DNA from: Planctomyces sp. SH-PL62
GTDB taxonomy: Bacteria > Planctomycetota > Planctomycetia > Planctomycetales > Planctomycetaceae
Assembly: GCA_945905295.1 (NCBI GenBank)
Contig: CAMDPX010000022.1
Span: forward strand, 1 to 51,409
Direction: 5' to 3'
Length of the DNA: 51,409 nt
Below, in pieces: positions 14,002 to 50,400 of the stretch. Position 1 is the first letter of the stretch. Each line of letters begins with the position of its first letter. The translations under genes and the position numbers were made by a program. The notes under the pieces were generated by a model, which ran no database searches, had not been told where the DNA came from, and saw only the letters and a list, made by a program, of their open reading frames with translations.

Positions 14002-16500
14002 ATGAAAAACTGTTTGATCGCATTCGCCGTCCTCGTTTTGGGGACGGCGAATTTTTTCGTTCTGGCACAGGACGTTTCGCCGAAAAGCGATTCCGCCGCC
14101 GATCTCGAATTCTTCGAGAAGCGAGTGCGACCGCTGCTGGTGCAACGCTGCTTTGAGTGCCATTCGGCCAAGGCGGAGAAGTTGAAGGGTGGATTGCTGC
14201 TCGATAGCCGCGAGGCGATTCTCACTGGCGGGGATAGCGGGCCAGCGGCCGTGGTCGGTGATGTCGAAAAGAGTCTGATCGTTCAGGCGATTCGGTTCGA
14301 CAATGAAAATGTGCAGATGCCTCCGGCGGGAAAGTTGCCGGAGGCAGAAATTGCCGTGCTGACCGAATGGGTGCGTCGCGGATTTCCGTTCCCGGCGGCC
14401 AGCGCGAAAAAAGCGAGCCGGCGAGCTATCGACATCGCCGAAGGGAAGAAGCATTGGGCGTTTCAGCCGCTGAGCGTAGCCCGACTCTCCGAGTCGGGTC
14501 TGAGTGTTCCGAGGCCCGACTCGGAGATTCAGGCTACGGGGCGACGAACTCGGATTGATGACTTCATTCACGCGGCACAACGAAAGCATGGGTTGTCGCC
14601 GTCTCCCGACGCATCGAAGAGAACACTGATTCGTCGGTTGTCGTTTGATCTGCTCGGCCTGCCGCCGTCGCCTGAAGACGTCCAAGAATTCTTGGCGGAC
14701 GAATCGCCCGATGCTTACGAGCAACTCGTCGAGCGATTGCTGGCCGATCCGCGATTCGGTGAACGCTGGTCGCGGACGTGGCTCGATCTGGCGCGGTATT
14801 GCGACATCGGGGAATCGTGGCGGACCGGCGACGGGCAGCCGTGGCTGTATCGCGATTGGGTCGTGCGGGCGATGAACGAAGACGTTCCGTATGACGAGTT
14901 TGTTCGCAAACAACTGGCGGCCGATCTGCTGCCCGACTTCCAACCGACTGACGCCGCGGCGCTGGGATTCCTCGGACTTAGTCCTTCATATTGGAAGGAG
15001 TTGAAGCTCGACCACAATGTGATCAAGCAAGTTGTATCGGAAGAGTGGGAAGAACGAATTGAAGCGATCGGCGGGACGTTTCTGGGACTGACGCTGGCGT
15101 GCGCGCGATGTCACGACCACAAGTTTGATCCGATCACACAGCAGGATTACTACGGGCTGGCCGGAGTGCTGGCGAGCATCAAGATCGACGACAGTCCGAT
15201 CATCGCGAAACCGCTCGCGGATCAGGCGGCAGCCGCGCGAACGCAATTGAAAGAGTCGCAGGCTCAGTTAGACAAACTGCTCAAGGAACCAAAGCTGTCT
15301 GACACCGCGACCGACGAGGAAAAAGCAAAAGCGACGGAAGTCGCGAAGCAGATCGAATCCTTGCGTGGCAAGATGGCGGCGTTGCAACAGACGCCGCAGC
15401 TCAATACGCCAGTCGCGTTCGGCGTGACCGAGGCGGCGATGATCGTGCTGCCCGATGGGCCGAATCGGACGAAGATCGAATACAAGCCGAGTGAACCGCA
15501 GAACGTGGCGATGCAGATTCGTGGCAACGCGGCGAATCCCGGAGCGGTAGTGTCGCGTCGGTTCGTGACAGTCCTTTCGCCCAATGAACCAGCTCCGTTC
15601 AAAAACGGCAGCGGGCGATTGGAGTTGGCGAATGCAATCGTCACCGATGCGGCTCCACTGGCGGCGCGAGTCATCGTCAATCGGATTTGGGCACATCACT
15701 TCGGACGCGGCCTGGTCGCGACGCCGAGCAACTTCGGCACACAGGGCGAGAAGCCGACTCATCCGGAATTGTTGGACGACCTCGCCGCTCGATTCATCGA
15801 GCATGGCTGGTCGCTGAAGTGGCTGCATCGCGAGATCGTGTTATCGGCGACGTACCGGCAGCGTTCGGCTGATGGCCGATCGCCGACAGCCGATAGCCGC
15901 GATACCGTTTTTACCGGCGAAGGAAAAACGGTACACCGGCTATCGGCTATCGGCTCACGGCATTCGGCCGATCCGGAGAATCTCTGGTTGGCTCGGATGC
16001 CGGTACGGAAGTTGGATGTTGAGGGTTGGCGGGACTCAATGCTCGTGGCAACCGGGGAGTTGGATCGACGTGTTGGTGGTGCCCCGCAGGAATTGAGCGA
16101 AGTCGCCAATGTTCGGCGAACGGTTTATGGTTTAGTCCGGCGGCGTGAGTTGTCGGACTTGCTGCGGCTGCATGATTTTCCCGATCCGGTTTCTCACAGC
16201 GGATCGCGGATGCCGACGACGACTCCGTTGCAGCAGCTCTTTGTGTTGAACAGTTCGTTTCTGCAAGTTCGCGCGGCGGCGTTGGCCAGTCGAGTGTTGC
16301 GTGAGCATCCGCAAGACACACCGGCTCAGATTCGAGCGGTGCATCGCTGGCTCTTTGCTCGTGAAGCGACGGACGAAGACATTCAATTCGGGTCCGAGTT
16401 CCTGGCGACGTCGCAGGCCGAGGGGGTAATTGCCGACCAGGCGTGGCGTCACTACGCTCAGGCCCTGCTGGCGACCAACGAGTTGCAATTCGTTGAGTGA
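14002..16500 (+). CDS. PSD1-type planctomycete cytochrome protein (PSCyt1-DUF1549-DUF1553)
   Basis: 832 residues. A signal peptide (residues 1-24) is followed by the PSCyt1 haem motif CFECH (~49-53), then DUF1549 (~186-396) containing a second haem-type motif CARCH near 366, a charged coiled-coil (~412-465) and DUF1553 (~530-812). The family is expanded in planctomycetes and is proposed to be periplasmic and redox-active; reactions are unproven. At ~832 residues it is shorter than many relatives, which carry an extra beta-sandwich between the DUFs. Two palindromic repeats are inserted in-frame (residues ~159-179 and ~622-656), both outside conserved blocks. GTG at 13996 is an alternative start; ATG 14002 gives the cleaner signal peptide. 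Its usual partner, a DUF1501 protein, is 21 kb away. Confidence 0.92.
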   Translation: MKNCLIAFAVLVLGTANFFVLAQDVSPKSDSAADLEFFEKRVRPLLVQRCFECHSAKAEKLKGGLLLDSREAILTGGDSGPAAVVGDVEKSLIVQAIRFDNENVQMPPAGKLPEAEIAVLTEWVRRGFPFPAASAKKASRRAIDIAEGKKHWAFQPLSVARLSESGLSVPRPDSEIQATGRRTRIDDFIHAAQRKHGLSPSPDASKRTLIRRLSFDLLGLPPSPEDVQEFLADESPDAYEQLVERLLADPRFGERWSRTWLDLARYCDIGESWRTGDGQPWLYRDWVVRAMNEDVPYDEFVRKQLAADLLPDFQPTDAAALGFLGLSPSYWKELKLDHNVIKQVVSEEWEERIEAIGGTFLGLTLACARCHDHKFDPITQQDYYGLAGVLASIKIDDSPIIAKPLADQAAAARTQLKESQAQLDKLLKEPKLSDTATDEEKAKATEVAKQIESLRGKMAALQQTPQLNTPVAFGVTEAAMIVLPDGPNRTKIEYKPSEPQNVAMQIRGNAANPGAVVSRRFVTVLSPNEPAPFKNGSGRLELANAIVTDAAPLAARVIVNRIWAHHFGRGLVATPSNFGTQGEKPTHPELLDDLAARFIEHGWSLKWLHREIVLSATYRQRSADGRSPTADSRDTVFTGEGKTVHRLSAIGSRHSADPENLWLARMPVRKLDVEGWRDSMLVATGELDRRVGGAPQELSEVANVRRTVYGLVRRRELSDLLRLHDFPDPVSHSGSRMPTTTPLQQLFVLNSSFLQVRAAALASRVLREHPQDTPAQIRAVHRWLFAREATDEDIQFGSEFLATSQAEGVIADQAWRHYAQALLATNELQFVE
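14476..14537. repeat. REP-like palindrome R3, in-frame in the PSD1 gene
   Basis: Left arm 14476-14498 starts GTAGCCCGACTCTCCGAGTC. Right arm 14515-14537 is the inverted copy with two mismatches. The left half alone folds as CCCGACTC-TCC-GAGTCGGG behind a GTAG head. The reading frame stays open and encodes ~21 residues (RLSESGLSVPRPDSE...) between the WAFQPL block and the IDDFI block, which are close together in relatives. Confidence 0.85.
15867..15969. repeat. Palindrome R4, copy 1, in-frame in the PSD1 gene
   Basis: The inner stem is TACCGTTTTT (15903-15912) with AAAAACGGTA (15924-15933). Outer arms of ~33 nt are built from GGCCGAT/CCGATAG-like motifs. It encodes ~34 residues between LSATYRQ and DPENLWL, two DUF1553 blocks normally separated by a short loop. 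A second copy with the same inner stem lies between genes at 39373-39463. Confidence 0.85.
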
Positions 16501-19790: not shown

Positions 19791-19860
19791 CGCTCGTAGT
19801 GCCCCGATTTATCGGGTCGGGGTCGCGTGTTCGACCCCATAAATGGGGTCACTACGAGCG
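19791..19860. repeat. REP-like inverted pair R7, copy 1
   Basis: Each half begins CGTAGTG and folds by itself. The right half (complement strand) is ACCCCAT-TT-ATGGGGT; the left half is CCCGAT-TT-ATCGGG. The two ~29-nt halves (19791-19819 and 19832-19860) are inverted to each other, giving a 70-nt element just after the kinase gene. A worn copy is at 46485-46554. Confidence 0.87.
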
Positions 19861-22958: not shown

Positions 22959-23027
22959 ATCAGCCGGAACGCGCTAGCGTCCGGTTGGTAACGAGAAGAA
23001 ACCGGACGCTAGCGCGTTTCGGCTGAT
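22959..23027. repeat. Palindrome R9
   Basis: Arms of 28 nt (22959-22986 and 23000-23027) match as inverted copies with one mismatch; the core is ACGCGCTAGCGTCCGG. The spacer is 13 nt. It starts 9 nt after the membrane-protein stop and lies before a sigma factor gene. A terminator function is possible from stem strength, but no T-run follows. Confidence 0.88.
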
Positions 23028-39477: not shown

Positions 39478-40896
39478 ATGAATCTGTTACTGAACGACAC
39501 GATTGCAGCGTTGGCCTCGGCTCCGGGTGTAGGCGGTCGCGGGATCGTGCGCGTGAGTGGCGGTGATGTGCGGCAGGTGCTTGATCAACATTTCGCGCCG
39601 CACGATGTTGAGCGTTGGACGAGAGCGACTCGCGCGGAACGGCATGTTGGGGAATGGCGATTGGACGTGGATGTGCCGTGGAATGATGCGCCGTTTCAAA
39701 ACGGATTGCGGCTGGCGGTCGAGATTGCCTTGTGGCCGACGAAGCGGAGTTACACGGGGCAGCCATTGGCTGAACTGCATTTGGTGAGCTCGCCGCCGTT
39801 GTTGGAGGCGATGCTGACGCAGTTGTGCCGCAGCGGTTGCCGAGCGGCTCGGCCGGGTGAGTTTACGTTGCGAGCGTTTCTGGCCGGGCGGCTGGATTTG
39901 TTGCAGGCCGAGGCGGTGCTCGGAGTGATCGACGCAGCGGATCATGTGGAGTTGGAGCAAGCGTTGCAGCAGTTGGCGGGTGGGATCTCGCAGCAGATGG
40001 GAAGACTCCGCGGCGACTTGCTGGAATTGTTGGCGGATTTGGAAGCGGGCTTGGACTTCGTCGATGAAGACATCGAGTTCGTTTCGCGCGAGCAACTGCT
40101 GTCGAGAGTCGCATTGGCTCAACAAGCCATCGCGGAATTGTGCGACCAAGCGTCGCGGCGGTTGCAGAGTTCGTCTCGTCCGCGAGTCGTGCTCGCCGGA
40201 TTGCCGAATGCTGGCAAGAGCACGCTGCTCAATGCGCTGACCGGGCGTTCGGCAGCGTTGGTGTCGGAGATCAGCGGGACGACGCGGGATTACCTGTGCG
40301 TCCCATTGGATCGTGGCGAACTGCACGTTGATCTGATCGACACGGCTGGCTGGGATTCAATGACCGGTGGGATTGAGGCGGTCGCTCAGCAGCGGCGGCA
40401 TGAGCAGTGGCAACAAGCCGATTTGATTGTGTGGTGCAGCGACTTGTCGGCCGACGCGGCGATGGACGAGCAATTGTTCGCGGAGTTGCGCAGCGAGGAG
40501 CGACCGGTCGTTTGGGTGGGGACGAAGGCGGATTGTGTTCCCGTAGCTTGGACGCCCACGTCCGAGCGTTCGGACGAGGGCGTCCATGCTACGGTCAGCG
40601 CGCGCGATGGTCGCGGCCTCGACGAACTGTGTTTTCAGTTGGCAAAACTGCTATCGGCAGAATCACGCGGACGTCGGCAGTGGATCGGCATGACGGCCGC
40701 TCGGTGCCAGAACAGTTTGCTCGCCGCACGAGACGCACTTGGCCAAACGTTTGAAGCAGCGAGCCTGGGGTCGAGCGACGACTTGGTGATCATCGAGTTG
40801 CGTGAGACGCTCGAACATCTCGGCCACATCGTCGGCGCGGTTTACACGGACGACGTACTGGACCGCGTCTTCAGCAAGTTCTGCATTGGAAAGTAG
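39478..40896 (+). CDS. mnmE: tRNA uridine-5-carboxymethylaminomethyl synthesis GTPase MnmE
   Basis: 472 residues. With MnmG it modifies U34 of certain tRNAs (cmnm5U) in the cytoplasm. The N-terminal folate-binding domain begins NDTIAALASAPGVGGRGIVR. The G domain shows G1 (GLPNAGKS ~240-247), G2 (EISGTTRD ~264), G3 (DTAGW ~288) and G4 (TKAD ~349). The protein ends with the catalytic FCIGK (Cys essential in the family). E. coli MnmE has 454 residues; this one is 18 longer, and an 18-codon palindromic element (R11) sits between G4 and the G5 loop at ~355-372. AAGGA at 39470 is the ribosome-binding site. The stop codon belongs to the GTAG head of element R12. Confidence 0.97.
   Translation: MNLLLNDTIAALASAPGVGGRGIVRVSGGDVRQVLDQHFAPHDVERWTRATRAERHVGEWRLDVDVPWNDAPFQNGLRLAVEIALWPTKRSYTGQPLAELHLVSSPPLLEAMLTQLCRSGCRAARPGEFTLRAFLAGRLDLLQAEAVLGVIDAADHVELEQALQQLAGGISQQMGRLRGDLLELLADLEAGLDFVDEDIEFVSREQLLSRVALAQQAIAELCDQASRRLQSSSRPRVVLAGLPNAGKSTLLNALTGRSAALVSEISGTTRDYLCVPLDRGELHVDLIDTAGWDSMTGGIEAVAQQRRHEQWQQADLIVWCSDLSADAAMDEQLFAELRSEERPVVWVGTKADCVPVAWTPTSERSDEGVHATVSARDGRGLDELCFQLAKLLSAESRGRRQWIGMTAARCQNSLLAARDALGQTFEAASLGSSDDLVIIELRETLEHLGHIVGAVYTDDVLDRVFSKFCIGK
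40541..40594. repeat. REP-like palindrome R11, in-frame in mnmE
   Basis: 54 nt, exactly 18 codons. Arms CCGTAGCTTGGACGCCC (40541-40557) and GGGCGTCCATGCTACGG (40578-40594) pair with one mismatch, and CGTCCGA-GCGT-TCGGACG (40559-40576) forms the inner stem. Each half carries a GTAG head. It encodes PVAWTPTSERSDEGVHAT-type sequence between MnmE motifs G4 and G5. Confidence 0.9.
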
Positions 40897-40973
40897 GTCT
40901 GCCTTTCCAGGCGGACCCGAGTGGTGACGACGCGGATGGAAGCGTTCGGGTCAGGCTGGAAAGCCGGACCTAC
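40893..40973. repeat. REP-like inverted pair R12 supplying both convergent stop codons
   Basis: Left half: GTAG + GTCTGCC-TTTCC-AGGCGGAC (from 40893). Right half, minus strand: GTAG + GTCCGGC-TTTCC-AGCCTGAC (from 40973). The TTTCC loop is conserved. TAG 40894-40896 is the mnmE stop, and on the minus strand TAG (40972-40970) is the stop of the opposing gene. Position between convergent genes also fits a bidirectional terminator, though T-runs are absent. Confidence 0.9.
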
Positions 40974-42106
40974 TTCGCGGATTCGCCGAATTCGGTGTCA
41001 GGAAAACGCTCCGCGATGTCTTGCAGCAAGCGGCGGGCGTCGTCGAGTTGGCCGAGGCGTTTGAGGGATTCGGCGGCTTCGACTCCGGCGCGGGCGGCGA
41101 GGCGTGGGTCGTTGTCGTCCATCAGCATCACCCACAATAGCGAAGTCGCCGCGCGGTCGTGCTCGCGGCGCATCGCCCAGCCTCGGCCGAGCAGGTACGA
41201 CGGGCCGCCGCGCTGAGTCGCGGGCATCTCGCGGATGCGAGTGTCCCAGCGGTTGAGTTCGAGGTCGCCGATCTCCAACGCTCGCAACTTGAGCCGCCAC
41301 GATTGAGCTTGCGCGAGCGTGCGAACTCGTTCGTCCGCGCCTCGCTGCAAGACTTGCAGCTCTTGTGCTGCCGAGTCGCCGAGACTGGCGTCGTCCAACA
41401 ACAGGCTTGCGCCGAGCAGTCGAGTCGTCTCCGATTCGTGCGTCAGCCAGATGCGGGCTTGCGACTTCGCCGCTCCGGGGACTTGCTCCGAAGCCCAGAC
41501 CAGTGGGATCAAGCCGAAGTGCCGTGTCGCGCGATCACTTTCGAGGAGTTTGAGGAATCGCGTTCCGGCAGAGGCACGGTCCCCCATTCGCAACGAGCAG
41601 CGAATGAGCGACGCGAGAATTTCGCGTTGAACCCAGCCACGTTTTTCGACGACCAGTGCGGACTGCAATGCCTGCGCCGCTTCATTGAGCTTGCGTTCGG
41701 CCAGCAGCTTGCGGCCGAGTTCGTGCGATTCCAGCCACGCGGTGCGGACCTCGATGACTTGCTCGGCGGGATACGTCTTCTGAGTGGGTCCGGTTTTGAA
41801 TTGCACGGTGATCCGCTCACCGGTGTATTCCACGATCTGACACGGCAACGTCAGCCGACTGCTGGTCCCTTCGGTTTGCAGAATGACGGTGTCCTGCGCG
41901 GCGAGCGAAGACGCGGCCAGCCAGAGAACGCAAAACGAAAAACGGAGAGAGACGAATTGAAAATGGCGATCGGCACGGGCCTCCTGATTCCGCCGGTTCA
42001 ATCGACCGTCGGGGTTCCGCGAGGGGAAACCAGCGGAAGCGCCAGTGGCGGGGCCAGGAGACCCTCGCCGAGCGCGGGGCGACATTTTGCATTCACCATT
42101 TCTCAT
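40970..42106 (-). CDS. Secreted helical repeat protein, start uncertain
   Basis: 378 residues if read from ATG 42106 (ATG 42085 is in the same frame). A signal peptide (FVSLRFSFCVLWLAASSLAA) begins only around residue 51; ahead of it lies an Arg/Pro/Gly-rich stretch encoded by palindromic element R13, with no ATG, GTG or TTG close to the signal peptide. The mature part starts with a small beta segment (DTVILQTEGTSSRLTLPCQI) and continues with helical TPR-like repeats (RKLNEAAQALQSALVVEKRG; RLGQLDDARRLLQDIAERF). A protein-protein interaction role outside the inner membrane is likely. The stop is provided by R12. Either R13 was inserted between start and signal peptide, or the original start was lost. 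Confidence 0.78.
   Translation of the reverse strand: MRNGECKMSPRARRGSPGPATGASAGFPSRNPDGRLNRRNQEARADRHFQFVSLRFSFCVLWLAASSLAAQDTVILQTEGTSSRLTLPCQIVEYTGERITVQFKTGPTQKTYPAEQVIEVRTAWLESHELGRKLLAERKLNEAAQALQSALVVEKRGWVQREILASLIRCSLRMGDRASAGTRFLKLLESDRATRHFGLIPLVWASEQVPGAAKSQARIWLTHESETTRLLGASLLLDDASLGDSAAQELQVLQRGADERVRTLAQAQSWRLKLRALEIGDLELNRWDTRIREMPATQRGGPSYLLGRGWAMRREHDRAATSLLWVMLMDDNDPRLAARAGVEAAESLKRLGQLDDARRLLQDIAERFPDTEFGESAK
41981..42060. repeat. Palindrome R13 in the 5' part of the minus-strand secreted gene
   Basis: CTCCTGATTCCGCC (41981-41994) and GGCGGGGCCAGGAG (42047-42060) are inverted with three mismatches. The inner stem is TTCCGC (42015-42020) with GCGGAA (42033-42038). It lies between the only available ATG codons and the signal peptide of the gene. 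Confidence 0.65.
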
Positions 42107-47160: not shown

Positions 47161-47190
47161 TTGCTCGCGAGCCGATGACTCCCGACGTTG

Positions 47191-47332
47191 TGGCCGGTCT
47201 CCCGACCGAGCCACCTCATTTCGACCGAAGGTCTCCCCGAATGACCTGCGATGTCGAAGAGGAATCACCTCCAGCCTCTCGAACCAGGAGACCTTCGGTC
47301 AGCAAACAATGGCTCGGTCGGGAGACCGGCCA
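47191..47332. repeat. Nested palindrome R15
   Basis: Outer arms of 23 nt (47191-47213 and 47310-47332) are perfect inverted copies (TGGCCGGTCTCCCGACCGAG...). Inner arms ACCGAAGGTCTCC (47224-47236) and GGAGACCTTCGGT (47287-47299) are also perfect. Each outer arm can fold alone (CGGTC-TCCC-GACCG). The 142-nt element fills much of the gap between the ferredoxin terminator and the next kinase gene. Confidence 0.9.
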
Positions 47333-47442
47333 TAACCATACGGCCATCGCCGCGTCTGGAGTCCTCAGGCTTGCAGTTGCCGAGCCTCGCGCTTGTGATG
47401 TCCGCGCAGTGGGATCGAAGTCTGTAGCGGTTGAGGCAATTC

Positions 47443-50400
47443 ATGTCGGCATCGCAGTCTGATCGCAATGTGTTGTTCGGCGTCTTGGCGTTGCAGATGG
47501 AATTCATCACGCAGGCGGGGCTGATCGCGGCGTTGCAGGCCTGGACGTTGCAGAAGTCGCGGCTGTTGGGGGAATTGCTGGTCGAGTTGGGGCACATGTC
47601 GGCCGAGGATCGCGCCGCGCTGGAGCCGATGGTGGATCGGCATGTTGCGCGGCACGGTGGCAGTGCCGAGCAAAGTCTCGCCGCGATCAGTTCTGTGTCG
47701 GAGATCGCCGCCGAGTTGCGGGAGCTGCACGACGCCGATGTCCAACACAGTTTGCAGCATGTCGAGGGGCAGGCGTCTCGGCAGGCGGGGAGCTTGTCGG
47801 GCGTGGTGGCGGACGAAGATCCGCCGCAGCTTCAGCCGACGATGCTGGAGACGATGCAGGAAGAGGCGCAACCGGCGATGCGGTTTCAGTTGTTGCGGCC
47901 CCATGCCGAGGGGGGTTTAGGGAAGGTCTGGATTGCACGGGATCGGGAGTTGAATCGCGAGGTCGCGTTCAAGGAGATCAAGTCGAAGCGTGCTCAGGAC
48001 ACCAACAGTCGCGCCCGGTTCGTCCTGGAAGCGGAGATCACCGGCGGGCTGGAGCATCCGGGGATCGTGCCGGTGTATGGGCTGGGACATTTCGAGGATG
48101 GCCGCCCGTTTTATGCGATGCGGTTCATTCGAGGCCGCAGTTTGAAGGAGGCGATCGAGCAGTTTCATCAGAGCCAAATTCATCGTAGCCGAAGTCGCCA
48201 GACTTCGGATGCCGCGCGTTCCACGGATACCCCTGTAGCATCCGGCACTCCGAAGTCTGGCGACTTCGGCTACGACTCTCACGACTTCGGCTACGACTCG
48301 GTGGAGTTCCGCAAACTGATTCAGCGGTTGATCGACGTCTGCAACGCCATCGCGTATGCCCACAGTCGCGGCGTGCTGCACCGAGACTTAAAGCCGGGCA
48401 ACATCATGCTGGGCAAGTACGGCGAGACGTTGGTGGTGGATTGGGGCTTGGCGAAGGCGAAGGGCCAATCGTTCGATTCGGCCGCGAGCGTTTCGGCGGA
48501 GAGCATCGACCACGAACCAATGCTCTCGACCACCGGCAGCGAGGACGTCGCCTCGACGCAGATGGGCAGCGCGATCGGCACGCCTAAGTTCATGAGTCCC
48601 GAACAAGCGGCCGGTCGGTTGGATCTGCTCGGCCCGCCGGCCGACGTGTACAGCCTGGGAGCCACGCTGTACGAGCTGCTGACGGGCCAGGCTCCGATCG
48701 GTGCATTGCCGGGTGGCGGGAGCGAACGGCTGACGATTCCCGAAGTGCTGCGGCGTGTCGAGCAGGGTGCGTTTCCCGCGCCGCGCTCCGTCCTGCCGCT
48801 GGTTCCCGCCGCGTTGGAAGCGGTTTGCCTGAAGGCGATGTCGCGCGATCCGCAGGCCCGCTATGCGACGGCTCAAGCGCTGGCCGAGGACTTGGAGCGT
48901 TGGCTGGCGGGCGACCCGGTCTCGGTTTATCGCGAGCCGCTACCGGTGCGGGTGCGGCGGTTCGTGCGGCGTCGTCAAGTGGCGGCGACGAGCCTGGCAG
49001 CCGCGCTCCTCGTGGGGCTGATCGGTTTGGGCGTGTTGTCCGCCGTCGTGAGCGGTTCGAACCAGCGACTGAAGTCCGCCAACGCCTCGGAGCGACTCGC
49101 CAAAACCGACGCCGAAACCAAACGCGCCGAAGCTGAAGCTGAACGCAACAAAGCCGAGACGGCGTTGGAAGAGCGAGATTCCATTGAAAAGCAGCGAGTC
49201 GAGACTCAGCGTCAGTTGGACGCGGCTCTCGAACGGGCTGGCAGAGCAGAAGACCTCATCGCAAAGGTGAACCCAGAAGATCCGCAACGCCAATTGTTGG
49301 TAGCACCAGCCTTGTTGCGCGAGCTTGAGCAGGCAACTTCTGACGTGGACTCCGAGAAACGCATGGCTCTGATCGCCGCGTTCAAAACGAAAAAGTGGCT
49401 TGGAGTCCGCAGTTGTTTCCCTTGCCACACTGGTGGGCGACCGGCGGCTAATGATCCAAATTTTGAGGCTTTTTTGGCGATCTTTCCTGATGCGAGTTTT
49501 CGTGTGCTTCTTGATGAGGCAAAAACCTGGTCACGACACGATCAACACTCGAAAGCCTATTTTGCTTTGACGAGCAAACATGGTCGGTCGATTGGACAGT
49601 TACTCGGCGTCGATGCTTCGAAGGATCAGCGCTGTCTAAGCTGTCATGCCTGCGACGTCCCCGATCAATACCGCGGTGATCACAAAAAAGAGCCAAAGCA
49701 TGAATCATTTCGAATTGAAGAAGGGGTCAATTGTGACGCCTGTCATGGCCCGTCGTCGGAATGGCTTCAACCGCACGCGGTCGGAGACGTATGGCAAAAA
49801 AAATCACGAAAGGAAAAGGCCGCACTGGGAATGATCGACTTGAGCGATCCGGTCGGGCGGACTCAGTTGTGTCTCTCTTGTCACTTGGGCAGTCCCGCGG
49901 AGGGTAAAGTCATCACCCACACGATGTATGCAGCGGGACATCCTCCCTTATTCCCCTTCGAGCTAGAGACGTTCTGCAACCAGATGCCTCGGCATTGGCG
50001 ACGTCCAAAGGATTTGCCTCCAAAAATTCGAGAATCGCTGCCTATGGACGGCGGACTCATCGAGACAAAGTCTGTCGTCCTGGGTGGCCTCGTCACTTTG
50101 AGGGAGTCCATGGCCCTGCTATCCAAGCAGGCTTACAAGGGCTTTCATGAAGAGCAGTGGCCTGATCTGGCACAGTTTGATTGCGCCGCTTGTCACACGG
50201 CCTTGGAAGTCCCCAGTTGGAAGCGAGTCCGAGACTCTCGAAGTTCGAAGCTGGGACAACCTCGCTTGCCGCAATGGCCGCGGGTCTTTGGGCAACTCGG
50301 AGGCCGCTGGCTGCCGAAGGACGAGCAACTGCCTGACATTCTCACGCGACTGGATGAGAGCATTTCCCGAGGAGGAGGCTTTGGAGAACCCAAAGCGATT

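Follow-up and report, generated by a model that had tools for sequence, protein, structure and literature searches.

The GTAG ends of a REPIN-like repeat family coincide with stop codons in a planctomycete genome

The mnmE locus

The window, by which we mean the whole stretch of DNA analysed (51,409 nucleotides), is an entire contig of a draft genome (8.6 Mb, 476 contigs), and it holds an inverted pair of short repeats between the converging ends of mnmE and a gene on the opposite strand (Table 1). We call the repeat family A. The original prediction was that the left GTAG head ends mnmE, that the right one ends the opposing gene and that both do so in the context AAGTAG, and all of this can be read directly in the two ORFs: mnmE closes with GGA AAG TAG GTCTGCC, giving the protein tail FCIGK, while the minus strand closes the opposing ORF with GCG AAG TAG GTCCGGC. 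The C-terminal tail of MnmE is essential, and the product matches MnmE_helical, TrmE_N and MMR_HSR1 in Pfam. The opposing protein has, by eye, a signal-peptide-like N-terminus and two TPR matches below the Pfam cut-off; a codon-usage gene caller sets the start of its gene lower, near 42001.

Table 1. Features at the converging gene ends (positions in the window)
Feature	Position	Strand	Remarks
mnmE, 472 aa	39478..40896	+	last codon AAG; stop TAG 40894-40896 inside left head; basis ORF, Pfam and orthologues
81-bp inverted pair of GTAG-headed REPs (REPIN-like unit, family A)	40893..40973	none	basis sequence and RNA fold
Left REP	40893..40916	+	head GTAG 40893-40896 includes the mnmE stop
Right REP	40950..40973	-	head GTAG (minus strand, 40973-40970) includes the stop of the opposing gene
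Opposing gene, 378-aa ORF	40970..42106	-	last codon AAG; stop TAG 40972-40970

Both heads are exact copies of GTAGGTCNGNCTTTCCAG, and the window has no other match to it at up to three mismatches; in shuffled windows the same tolerance gives a mean of 0.29 matches, and two are reached in 4 of 100 shuffles. As RNA, the 81-bp unit is predicted to fold into one long hairpin (-47.1 kcal/mol, z -5.8). Further inverted-repeat pairs lie in the window at 14475-14538, 19791-19860, 22959-23027, 47187-47336 and 48183-48275, three of them with GTAG in an outer end.

The same site in related genomes

A full-length mnmE was found in 10 of 11 genomes of the same genus. The original prediction had the element arriving while both protein ends were exactly preserved, and the relatives agree with this: all ten MnmE proteins end in FCIGK at the same residue (stop TAG in nine, TGA in one), and the opposing gene, whose end could be aligned in eight of the ten, stops at the same residue in 8/8 (TAG 5, TAA 2, TGA 1), with a nearly empty slot of 2-10 bases among them. 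What fills the space between the stops varies a good deal. G010 has a family A pair there, and G007 has family A on at least the left side. G002, G006, G005 and G003 carry inverted repeats that contain TGGAGTGCG close to the start, G009 carries a CCCTGTCGC palindrome, and G011 and G004 have just 10 and 2 bases. The frame AAGTAG..CTACTT thus houses different inserts among relatives. The near-empty loci L071 and L070 already read AAG TAG at mnmE, and L070 also has CTAC on the other side; since G011 has GTAG at both stops without a long insert, the TAG stops of this site may be older than the present insert. The nine closest matches in the named collection, which are metagenome-assembled and have MnmE identities of 82-90%, repeat the site sequences of these relatives and were not counted again.

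Family A across the genome

Genome-wide (8.6 Mb) there are 250 exact GTAGGTCNGNCTTTCCAG heads, against none for the reversed control pattern. Among 61 genomes of the bacterial family (58 genera) the distribution is patchy, with any exact head in six and more than 60 heads in four of those. Positions relative to genes were read in a sample of 61 sequences (60 stretches and the window; 1,169,774 bases), of which 51 of the 60 stretches were picked, from the first 100 of the 250 places, because they held listed copies and 9 were not, so that the sample is biased to the repeat; gene calls came from a simple codon-usage script run on draft contigs. This sample contains 127 repeat bodies at up to one mismatch, GTAG being present in 122, and in 34 of these 122 heads the TAG is exactly the called stop, while every other single distance between 90 bases before and 60 after the stop accounts for at most three heads. 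Counted over heads that lie behind a neighbour's 3' end, family A is exactly at the stop in 35 of 66. Comparison with chance, which had been proposed as the test that could refute a link between GTAG heads and stops, therefore goes strongly in favour of the link, the overlap being far above expectation.

The copies are arranged as 59 inverted pairs and 9 singles, with a regular spacing (a script value of 77 or 78 in 34 of the 59 pairs); both ends lie at stops in 6 pairs, one end in 21 and neither in 32. Most heads are extragenic, though not all, 30 of 122 being inside another called gene. GTAG is the leading four-base stop context, at 152 of 776 called stops in stretches mostly chosen for holding the repeat, and among the 557 genes whose stop has no inverted repeat it is found at 64. 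In tandem gene pairs the median distance from the element to the next called start is 22 bases (n=18); the median intergenic gap of repeat-free tandem pairs is 52 (n=224). Presence or absence of family A at orthologous sites varies among relatives. Among copies with up to three mismatches, 25/36 at stops and 20/30 elsewhere are free of any mismatch, the chance matches with 5-10 mismatches that the loose pattern also caught having been set aside. Trimming with age was accordingly dropped as a candidate, copies at stops being not visibly more diverged than others.

REPs may be mobilised in trans, and a genome-wide transposase search gave 13 Y1_Tnp matches, with family A heads at none of the 13 loci within up to about 1.5 kb on each side. 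A different family, I (GTAGGTTGGGACTC), has eight and six heads around two Y1_Tnp ORFs in L011 and L012, which is likely a transposase-repeat pairing. Eight family A copies in called genes (pieces 1, 7, 9, 13, 15, 16, 21 and 26; for example L061:16906-16971, L111:17710-17808 and L119:8164-8241) have mutually similar flanks, so that a single gene family, DUF1553-like by eye, carries several copies at a like place. A second repeat, with the core TGTTTCAAAAC, adjoins the family A copies of pieces 6, 17, 18 and 25 (in L107, for instance, just left of 6032), and in pieces 6 and 25 it is an inverted repeat.

Repeat families with and without TAG in the head

Repeat families were drawn from over-represented 14-mers, and ten were tested (families L and M of the list were not used). 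Among these ten, exact coincidence with the stop is confined to the ones headed by TAG. The five GTAG-headed families other than A have heads exactly at the stop in 5/22 (D), 4/20 (E), 4/16 (F), 3/12 (H) and 4/25 (I) cases, 20/95 when pooled, whereas palindromic families with no TAG in the head give 0/28 (C), 0/16 (G), 0/28 (K) and 0/27 (B), or 0/99 together; 55 of these 99 TAG-less heads begin between 3 bases before and 60 behind a stop, yet none begins at it. By Fisher's test family A differs from the TAG-less families with p = 8e-18 and families D, E, F, H and I together with p = 2e-7, and family A itself is at stops more than the other GTAG families (p = 4e-5). The habit extends to two other genera, where, in 20 stretches each taken around listed copies, family A is at the stop in 10/19 and 20/27.

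Orthologous gene ends

We searched five relatives for the tails of 28 genes that have family A at the stop, and 27 gave orthologues; with mnmE and its ten relatives included, 120 distinct orthologue tails were read, some of which may be paralogues (L170 for gene 17 and L233 for gene 19, for example). Family A lies at the stop in 38 of the 120, another inverted repeat in 37 and none in 45, where 'another inverted repeat' means one starting within 10 bases of the stop, a definition that 77 of 2400 shuffles also satisfy, and where the 37 include at least one family A relative with an indel (L152). The gene ends at the same codon as in this genome in 38/38 orthologues with family A as against 55/82 without it (p = 9e-6). 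Excluding family A, 30 of 82 orthologues have another inverted repeat behind a GTAG stop, compared with a background of 21 in 211 non-A genes from the fetched loci of the relatives (p = 5e-7); with all inverted repeats pooled the enrichment is mild (37/82 against 63/211, p = 0.02).

For a control we took 22 repeat-free genes with GTAG stops, 18 of which yielded 65 orthologues; family A lies at the stop of 3, another repeat at that of 9, and 53 have none. Of 62 control orthologues, 2 have some other inverted repeat following a GTAG stop, a figure biased low by the choice of genes that are repeat-free in G000. The 53 repeat-free control orthologues keep GTAG in 17 cases and protein length in 37, and so the turnover of GTAG stops is fast. 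With GTAG retained in just 17/53 controls, the kind of stop found at an empty site says little. The 45 orthologues with no inverted repeat stop with TGA (20), TAA (10) or TAG (15), and GTAG occurs in 11/45 of them (p = 0.50 against the control); once six with relics seen by eye are removed this becomes 5/39 (p = 0.047). Beside the control we regard stop type as uninformative about a pre-existing GTAG. In one orthologue of gene 5 (L165, G002) the junction GTGTAGATCAG occurs twice before the family A copy, possibly a local duplication at the stop.

Empty and filled junctions

Gene 17 is the clearest insertion. Here family A (L104:2413-2492) entered a coding sequence that is empty in three relatives (L211, L227 and L229), none of which has GTAG or CTAC at the site; the protein was ended five codons before the old stop, the ATG of the next gene was kept, and the filled flanks exceed the empty site by 4 bases. 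The picture is similar at genes 23 and 24, with flanks 5 and 10 bases longer. At the stops of genes 5, 8, 10 and 14 the element alone occupies, in the filled locus, a place where the empty relative has 15-44 bases including its stop.

Away from stops, 30 pairs were searched in three relatives and the best 30 matching loci compared, giving seven sites with an empty counterpart (pieces 9, 14, 18, 20, 21, 23 and 27) and 14 empty alleles, of which those of piece 21, a member of a gene family, may be paralogues. Pieces 7, 13 and 26 were excluded, since the only loci they matched belong to their paralogue, piece 21, and a relative holding a shortened family A copy at piece 3 was counted as filled. 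The flanks of these sites were often changed by 7 to 36 bases. GTAG is at the junction in 0/14 alleles and CTAC in 1/14, the single case (L298, piece 23) lying exactly at the right end of the filled site, where its sisters read CGAC and CGAA; for 14 stretches of about 20 bases or more, we estimate that one CTAC is about the chance level. GTAG as a required target therefore finds no support at non-stop sites, and the IS608-like trait of a fixed tetranucleotide in the empty target is absent from these seven sites. Since empty sites mostly lack the ends of the element, family A seems to bring its own ends, and with them its own stop.

In convergent gene pairs with family A between them (13 pairs), both stops are GTAG in 7 and one is in 5; the corresponding figures are 1 and 11 for 32 pairs with other listed families, 4 and 7 for 44 pairs with some other inverted repeat, and 0 and 3 for 32 pairs with no inverted repeat. 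At gene 25 one empty relative reads TGA at both stops, with a distance of 39 bases between the two.

Why do heads and stops coincide?

We think that the coincidence is probably best explained by a stop that the element itself supplies, combined with selection on where copies survive. With TAG in each of its GTAG ends, the unit is a REPIN-like element that is non-coding and present in many copies. In a gene-dense genome such an element would survive where it harms no gene, and one ending in TAG would also be tolerated inside the stop or the last codons, since it would close the frame at once. A stop within each end would make the last codons a safe landing, and therefore only TAG families would reach the stop. 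The old stop and spacer would then be dispensable and could disappear, whether during insertion or afterwards, until in the end the element filled all the space from the stop to the next start region or to the opposing stop. At mnmE, with constrained protein ends and a space of 2-10 bases, the only fit may have been a unit whose ends serve as both stops. Of the two alternatives originally put forward, selection or the choice of stop codons as targets, it is thus the selection half that fares well, as only TAG-headed families behave in this way and the inserts appear to carry their TAG, and targeting of a pre-existing GTAG does badly at the 14 empty alleles.

Selection is favoured over targeting, and it does not fully explain how exact the arrangement is. 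A self-supplied stop leaves partly unexplained why protein ends were rarely changed, when 55/82 orthologues without family A and 37/53 controls have the same length, as well as the excess of family A over other GTAG families and the simultaneous replacement of both convergent stops at gene 25. Most arrivals changed nothing, which random landing with selection predicts only if the ends are very constrained, so the exactness of the preserved protein ends exceeds what plain selection predicts. The spacer may have been replaced at insertion or trimmed later, or inserts may have been exchanged, slow trimming having no support from copy age, and there may be a sequence-independent preference for the very end of a gene. 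Precise targeting or spacer replacement as the main cause is, to our minds, unlikely, and we are just as doubtful of the bolder idea that family A inserts at gene ends, or replaces the spacer there, with single-codon precision whatever the old stop, leaving the protein unchanged and making the stop a standing slot for successive GTAG palindromes.

A related proposal is that the ends persist as stops while other GTAG palindromes are swapped inside by recombination or template switching, so that families turn over. The different inserts in one frame at mnmE are what this would give, as is the excess of other repeats behind GTAG stops over both the background and the control (30/82 against 21/211 and 2/62), but tolerant sites should also take several families independently, pooled inverted repeats are just mildly enriched, the control figure is biased low and L152 is a family A relative with an indel; we rate such exchange as improbable. 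Insertion by a transposase beside a target GTAG, with G-preceded TAG stops as the available sites, is very unlikely. IS608 requires its target tetranucleotide, and the near-empty mnmE sites already have AAG TAG (L070 with CTAC opposite), L298 shows CTAC at a junction, and GTAG in the repeat-free targets (11/45) is not clearly below the control. Against these stand the 0/14 GTAG and roughly chance 1/14 CTAC at the seven non-stop sites, the gene 17 insertion into a site with no GTAG, and the convergent pairs, where GTAG on both sides is seen in 0/32 without an inverted repeat and 7/13 with family A. The hairpin might instead be kept at the stop for an effect on translation of the upstream gene or on mRNA ends, given that the unit is predicted to fold strongly and that PMC12306157 cites ribosome stalling by E. 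coli REPs within 15 nt of the stop; yet 45/120 orthologues have no inverted repeat at the same stop and can evidently dispense with it, and we find this role quite unlikely. A gene-calling artefact or chance has next to no probability: the caller was indeed a simple script applied to draft contigs, but protein ends agree in 38/38 family A orthologues and the TAG-less families, put through the same caller, give 0/99.

The analysis adds numbers and controls to what had been a printed remark, and shows that the coincidence depends on TAG in the repeat end. Sister species offer a natural experiment in which the same stops are empty or hold different palindromes. The frequency of the GTAG context (152/776 stops) suggests that a repeat family shapes stop-codon usage, and, should the exactness be due to more than selection, it would be a sign of some process able to edit the ends of genes to the exact codon.

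Comparison with known systems

The use of a repeat as a stop is already in print, and the mnmE case belongs to this known kind. Di Nocera et al. (2013; PMC3733652) write that the termini of GTAG REPs 'often provide' the stop of flanking ORFs (with 'opal' for TAG), name Planctomycetes among the hosts and report that, in the two species they diagram, repeats between convergent genes mostly lie no more than 20 bp from either gene. Family A is like their GTAG REPs (24 families), by description only, in its terminal GTAG, short palindrome, inverted dimers, position near 3' ends and TAG serving as stop. The section of that paper on stops offers no stop-codon count and describes no empty sites (the word 'empty' has 0 occurrences in the paper's text), both of which are given here, and in the open-licence full-text literature, as far as its searchable text extends, we found no treatment of empty sites or of a family control for REPs as stops (see also PMC2817692, PMC3390384 and PMC8049555). 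Bertels and Rainey (2011; PMC3116915) define REPINs as inverted REP doublets with regular spacing that can fold into a single hairpin, and family A shares all three traits; it differs in that no cognate RAYT lies beside it at the 13 Y1_Tnp loci, and 'stop codon' occurs 0 times in the available text of that paper. The REPs of E. coli, as described in PMC12306157, likewise sit just behind stops, 1-20 nt from the gene end, whereas in family A the stop lies inside the repeat.
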